From Halpernia frigidisoli (lineage in GTDB: Bacteria > Bacteroidota > Bacteroidia > Flavobacteriales > Weeksellaceae): 64,000 bases of DNA. The stretch spans positions 310,001 to 374,000 of the forward strand of contig NZ_FOQT01000001.1 in NCBI RefSeq assembly GCF_900113805.1, written 5' to 3'. Under the pieces are notes generated by a model. That model saw nothing but the letters and a program-made list of their open reading frames with translations, did not search any database and had not been told where the DNA came from. Shown piece by piece: positions 39,110 to 39,215 of this stretch (its first letter is position 1; every line of letters begins with the position of its first letter). A program made the translations under genes and the position numbers.

Positions 39110-39215
39110 TCTTGCAAATCTGTTTTTTTTTTTTTTTTTTTTTTTTTTTTTTTTTTTTTTTTTTTTTCTTTACAAGGTTGAAAGTAAGTGTACAATTATT
39201 GGCAACAAAAACTTA
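39110..39215 (+). promoter_or_regulatory. Conserved leader of array unit 3 with a T45 tract
   Basis: CTTGCAAATCTG, then 45 consecutive T (39123-39167), CTTTACAAGGTTGAAAGTAAG and ATTATTGGCAAC. It ends about 26 bases before the peptide ATG. The tract is far longer than any other homopolymer in the window. Confidence 0.65.

Follow-up and report, generated by a model that had tools for sequence, protein, structure and literature searches.

In Bacteroidota, DNA inversions are the main known basis of phase variation. A homopolymer between the -10 and -35 elements underlies the phase variation of porA, fetA and opc in Neisseria, where tract length alters polymerase binding (PMC2791445). In Mycoplasma hyorhinis, the promoter of each vlp gene carries a poly-A tract and is subject to phase variation (PMC10502178). 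In H. pylori, the sabA T-tract adjoins the -35 element and tunes contacts made upstream in the manner of a rheostat, with a periodicity of about 10 bp (PMC4081817). Bacteroidota promoters have a -33 TTTG / -7 TAHHTTTG layout (PMC6847099, PMC7366714), and in F. johnsoniae the A of TAHHTTTG hardly varies (PMC6847099). Our literature search found no paper that combines a homopolymer, phase variation and Chryseobacterium or its kin.

The locus described here lies in the window, by which we mean the whole 64-kb stretch of DNA that was analysed, and consists of three gene units (U1, U2 and U3), each with a T-tract in its leader. We propose, with a probability of roughly 0.6, that this T-run is the slipping spacer of a -33/-7 promoter, near its normal length in U1 and U2 and far beyond that length in U3.

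The three-unit array and its T-tracts

The three units are consecutive, and each comprises a leader, an exported peptide and a GLPGLI protein; an 883-aa CarboxypepD_reg protein follows (Table 1), as its ortholog also follows the unit in a sister species. The GLPGLI proteins of U1-U3 match TIGR01200 at 118-132 bits, whereas a comparison of the exported peptide with Pfam gave no match above threshold. An AlphaFold model of the U1 peptide is of low confidence (mean pLDDT 60); in it, the Cys-rich half contains a three-stranded sheet. The peptide ORFs of U1 and U3 are intact. In U2, the peptide frame is open throughout and an intact GLPGLI gene follows, but the start codon has been lost: the frame has TTA at this position and therefore no codon to initiate translation ahead of the signal peptide. 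The U2 peptide is probably not expressed.

Table 1. Features of the array, with positions in the window
Feature	Position	Strand	Remark
U1 TTG, -33-like element	36463..36465	+	From leader alignment
U1 T17 tract	36474..36490	+	Spacer 21 nt; 13 spacer Ts plus the C-to-T changed -7-like box TTTTA
U1 exported-peptide ORF, 106 aa	36560..36880	+	Cys-rich C-terminal part
U1 GLPGLI family protein	36885..37655	+	TIGR01200
U2 TTG, -33-like element	37810..37812	+	From leader alignment
U2 T13 tract	37821..37833	+	Spacer 21 nt; followed by CTTTA (37834-37838)
U2 peptide reading frame	37910..38188	+	TTA at the start position; signal peptide not preceded by ATG
U2 GLPGLI family protein	38238..39014	+	TIGR01200
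U3 TTG, -33-like element	39112..39114	+	From alignment of leaders
U3 T45 tract	39123..39167	+	TTG-to-CTTTA spacer of 53 nt (CAAATCTG + T45)
U3 CTTTA, -7-like element	39168..39172	+	Most other genera have CTTTG
U3 conserved leader (CAAGGTTGAAA...), probable 5' UTR	39173..39240	+	From leader comparison
U3 exported-peptide ORF, 104 aa	39241..39555	+	Conserved signal peptide, variable mature part
U3 GLPGLI family protein	39560..40333	+	TIGR01200, 127 bits
CarboxypepD_reg protein, 883 aa	40416..43067	+	Probable outer-membrane receptor-like partner

The 5' end of the 883-aa gene (40432-40483) is repeated at about 37729-37780 and 39031-39082, before the U2 and U3 leaders. We infer from these copies that the array was built by tandem duplication, of which the repeats would be remnants.

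All three tracts are present exactly as the preliminary description had them, but its remark that such a run is beyond chance applies to T45. Under a first-order Markov model, runs of at least 45 T are expected 1.6e-11 times in 64 kb, compared with 0.05 times for runs of at least 17 T and about once for runs of at least 13 T, and judged within the window T45 alone is far beyond chance. In the whole genome (3.02 Mb), there are six T or A runs of at least 13, three of which are the U1, U2 and U3 tracts, and four of at least 14, two of which are the T17 and T45 of these units. The other two runs of at least 14 lie outside such leaders, one after a hairpin-like stretch and one between genes.

The same description counted three different tract lengths, which is wrong in substance. 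U1 T17-ACAAGG and U2 T13-CTTTACAAGG align without a gap and differ by a single C-to-T change in U1, such that the T17 of U1 equals T13 plus C plus TTT of U2 in total length. There are therefore two spacer lengths rather than three, and only U3 is expanded, by 32 Ts relative to U1 and U2. The tracts were also placed 70-76 bases before each peptide start; we measure nearly the same, 69 nt (U1), 76 nt (U2) and 73 nt (U3), although the U2 start codon is absent, so the statement holds for U1 and U3 only.

Spacing of the putative promoter boxes in related leaders

A DNA search with the leader recovered the sister species (G001) at 86% identity and, with weaker matches, further genera of this family. 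A strict pattern (a run of at least T8, the box, GTTGAA) occurs in 8 of 320 genomes, with 0 matches for the reversed control, and a sequence model built from 17 leaders retrieved further ones. The resulting set of about 28 leaders shares an upstream TTG, often in the context TATTGTG or CTTGC, a T-rich stretch, CTTTG and a conserved leader, GTTGAAAC...TGCGCAAAA...TTAAACACAAAT. An ORF with a signal peptide, beginning MKK..LGL..TVG, comes next, usually followed by a GLPGLI gene.

Some relatives combine these parts differently. In two of the genomes (leaders L255 and L262 of G057 and G165), the same promoter type stands before a different small peptide (MKNLKKLSRNELK..., bacteriocin-leader-like) that lacks the LGLFLTVG signal peptide. 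The two cassettes of L155 share almost the same promoter and signal peptide but have unrelated mature peptides, which suggests that promoter-plus-signal modules may be copied onto new peptides. Upstream of the leader TTG, many relatives (L070, L071, L073, L074 and L087) have TTTAACATAATA and a GTGATAA box, which in L087 is part of a perfect TTATCAC-N6-GTGATAA palindrome. The TTTAACA found in relatives' upstream regions is similar to the core of the PhoP motif of Riemerella, whose PhoP regulon includes GLPGLI genes (PMC9603813). A heptamer tandem repeat, TTTTATC, occurs in two relatives, on the minus strand of L070 and L071 (~2320-2370), just upstream of an NAD-dependent epimerase-like ORF.

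We define D as the number of nucleotides between TTG and CTTTG/A. Where the T-rich spacer is interrupted by other bases, D is 23 in 10 of 11 leaders and 24 in the eleventh. These spacers have a mean pairwise identity of 62% (43-83%), and within the same 23-nt set the distance from box to ATG ranges from 68 to 77 nt. Four of the ten leaders with 23 nt (G057, G063, G165 and G170) were found by the model and lie outside its training set. Pure T-run spacers, in contrast, have D values of 17-25, plus 44 in G001 (T36) and 53 in U3. The deviation |D-23| is larger for pure runs (17 leaders) than for interrupted spacers (11 leaders; Mann-Whitney p = 2e-5, a value that is indicative because the leaders are related). 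Overall, 24 of the 28 leaders keep a D of 21-25 nt; U1 and U2, at 21 nt, fall in this range, and U3 is about 30 nt above the norm of 23. A caveat is that in five leaders a second TTG abuts the run, so two TTGs are possible, and the outer one was chosen by alignment. Choosing the TTG automatically scatters the pure-run lengths even more, and the contrast is therefore independent of the alignment correction.

If CTTTG is counted as -9 to -5, a spacing of 23 nt puts TTG at -35 to -33, matching the Bacteroidota -33 position; as in sigma-ABfr promoters, TTG would thus lie at -33 when the start is placed 4-5 nt past the -7 box. The canonical TAHHTTTG is absent at the leader, which has TTNCTTTG in other genera and TTTCTTTA or TTTTTTTA in the window, and the -7-like box has no A, save that it ends in A (CTTTA) in the window's genus. 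Elsewhere, TAHHTTTG occurs in 14 of 38 upstream regions of the window against a shuffle mean of 5.9 (0 of 200 shuffles). The position of the homopolymer between the putative core boxes and the 23-nt spacing fit across about 28 leaders, with a candidate -7 box that is non-canonical. This could be explained by a regulated promoter whose -7 box is weak, or by another sigma factor. Because conservation of the -33 element is weak in F. johnsoniae, a lengthened spacer could have a smaller effect than we suppose.

With one genome per species as the basis of comparison, tract length is found to vary between close copies. G002 has two paralogous cassettes with almost the same promoter, leader and signal peptide but tracts of T16 and T9; their mature peptides are unrelated past the signal peptide. 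U2 and U3 have T13 and T45 in otherwise alike leaders, and the two leaders of G258 have T13 and T12. In the sister species, one unit carries T36 at this position, between the same flanks. Another location in that species is the orthologous YjbR-to-ribF site, where one contig ends just past a T23, after the YjbR gene, and a second contig, with the ribF side and two GLPGLI genes, ends as well; the assembly therefore broke at or near the tract. The exact number of 45 is uncertain, and the lengths of both T36 and T45 are unreliable.

Explanations for the long tract

We hypothesize that the promoter is ordered as TTG at -33, about 23 nt of spacer, a CTTTG/CTTTA -7-like box, a conserved 5' UTR of about 60-75 nt and the signal-peptide ORF. 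An uninterrupted T-run spacer would gain or lose Ts through slipped-strand mispairing, which would shift the distance between -33 and -7, and each peptide cassette would have its own length-set promoter. U1 and U2 would then be near the family norm, whereas for U3 we predict transcription initiation that is weak, absent or regulated in another way. The run of U3 has probably slipped, changing or switching off the expression of its gene. The preliminary description had likewise proposed a layout in which slippage could set promoter or leader strength. Comparison of the leaders supports such a layout in that the run fills the interval from TTG to CTTTG/A, interrupted spacers hold their length and pure runs range from 17 to 53 nt, with recent paralogs 7 Ts apart. 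For the rest of the proposal to hold, CTTTR would be the -7 box, spacing would set output, length changes would be frequent and reversible within a population, and U3 would be low or off.

Neutral slippage, in which a chance expansion of the spacer has become fixed or is drifting without selected switching, is possible, though we do not favor it. U3 might then be a decaying cassette like U2, whose ATG is already lost. Long pure runs are avoided in the majority of relatives, whose spacers stay at 21-25 nt, and long T-runs also occur elsewhere in the family, for instance beside hairpins. However, two species of the genus have tracts of 36 and 45 here, before intact peptide and GLPGLI ORFs, and the ORFs of U1 and U3 are intact. 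We are more doubtful of a rheostat of the sabA type, in which the T-tract would bend or rotate the DNA and tune the alignment of the core promoter to an upstream activator or UP-like site, with recognition of -33 and -7 not abolished. T-tracts do act in this way at H. pylori sabA, and the excess over 23 nt, +21 in the sister species and +30 in U3, is close to two and three helical turns; these numbers carry the unreliability of the T36 and T45 lengths. GTGATAA-like boxes lie upstream of TTG in several related leaders, but are not seen in the window's genus, and the tract sits between the two putative core elements rather than outside -35.

It is improbable that transcription starts upstream of TTG and that the tract acts within the transcript, for example through RNA polymerase slippage or as the terminator tail of the upstream gene. 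Although in each of U1-U3 the tract comes after the preceding gene, no stable hairpin precedes it (0 to -2.3 kcal/mol, no more stable than shuffled sequence), and a fixed 23-nt spacing to TTG would be unexpected for a transcribed leader. An intrinsic terminator as such was rejected, there being no G+C-rich hairpin directly before the T-run in U1-U3 (z-scores of 0.4 to 1.5 for the minimum free energy). Homopolymers are error-prone, and the sister-species assembly breaks at such a tract, but an assembly or sequencing artefact is very unlikely as the whole explanation of T45 because the sister species, assembled independently, has T36 at the same place. The sequence on both sides of T45 is contiguous with the unit, and only its exact length is doubtful.

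Should the slipping-spacer promoter be right, the array may have a wider meaning. If a slippery spacer controls these diverging exported-peptide cassettes, it would be a second route to phase variation in Bacteroidota. A tentative extension, to which we give less weight, is a contingency system spanning this family of Bacteroidota, in which fast-diverging exported-peptide cassettes share a promoter/signal module and a T-run spacer switches or tunes each one independently. If this were true, cells in a population would display different peptides. In addition, spacers of 17 to 53 nt in like promoters offer a natural test of how strictly the Bacteroidota RNA polymerase requires the -33/-7 spacing.

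Comparison with known systems

The leaders resemble sigma-ABfr promoters in having TTG at -33, TTTG at -8 to -5 and an AT-rich spacer (PMC6847099, PMC7366714), but differ in the -7 box, which lacks A-11 and is CTTTA in this genus. The sabA promoter also has a promoter-proximal T-tract of varying length; there the tract is beside -35, whereas here it is downstream of TTG and abuts the -7-like box. The vlp genes are alike in forming a multi-copy family of exported products in which every copy has its own A/T homopolymer in the promoter, although genes and promoter type are unrelated.

The likeness to Neisseria porA, fetA and opc is in the architecture, as the homopolymer there is the spacer between the core promoter boxes, which is how we read this tract. 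Here, however, the promoter is of the Bacteroidota -33/-7 type, the repeated base is T rather than C/G, the maximum length is far greater and the products are exported peptides instead of outer-membrane proteins. Promoter-spacer homopolymers are already known from porA, opc and vlp; this array is a candidate for switching of that kind, in a phylum-level promoter setting that appears to be new.
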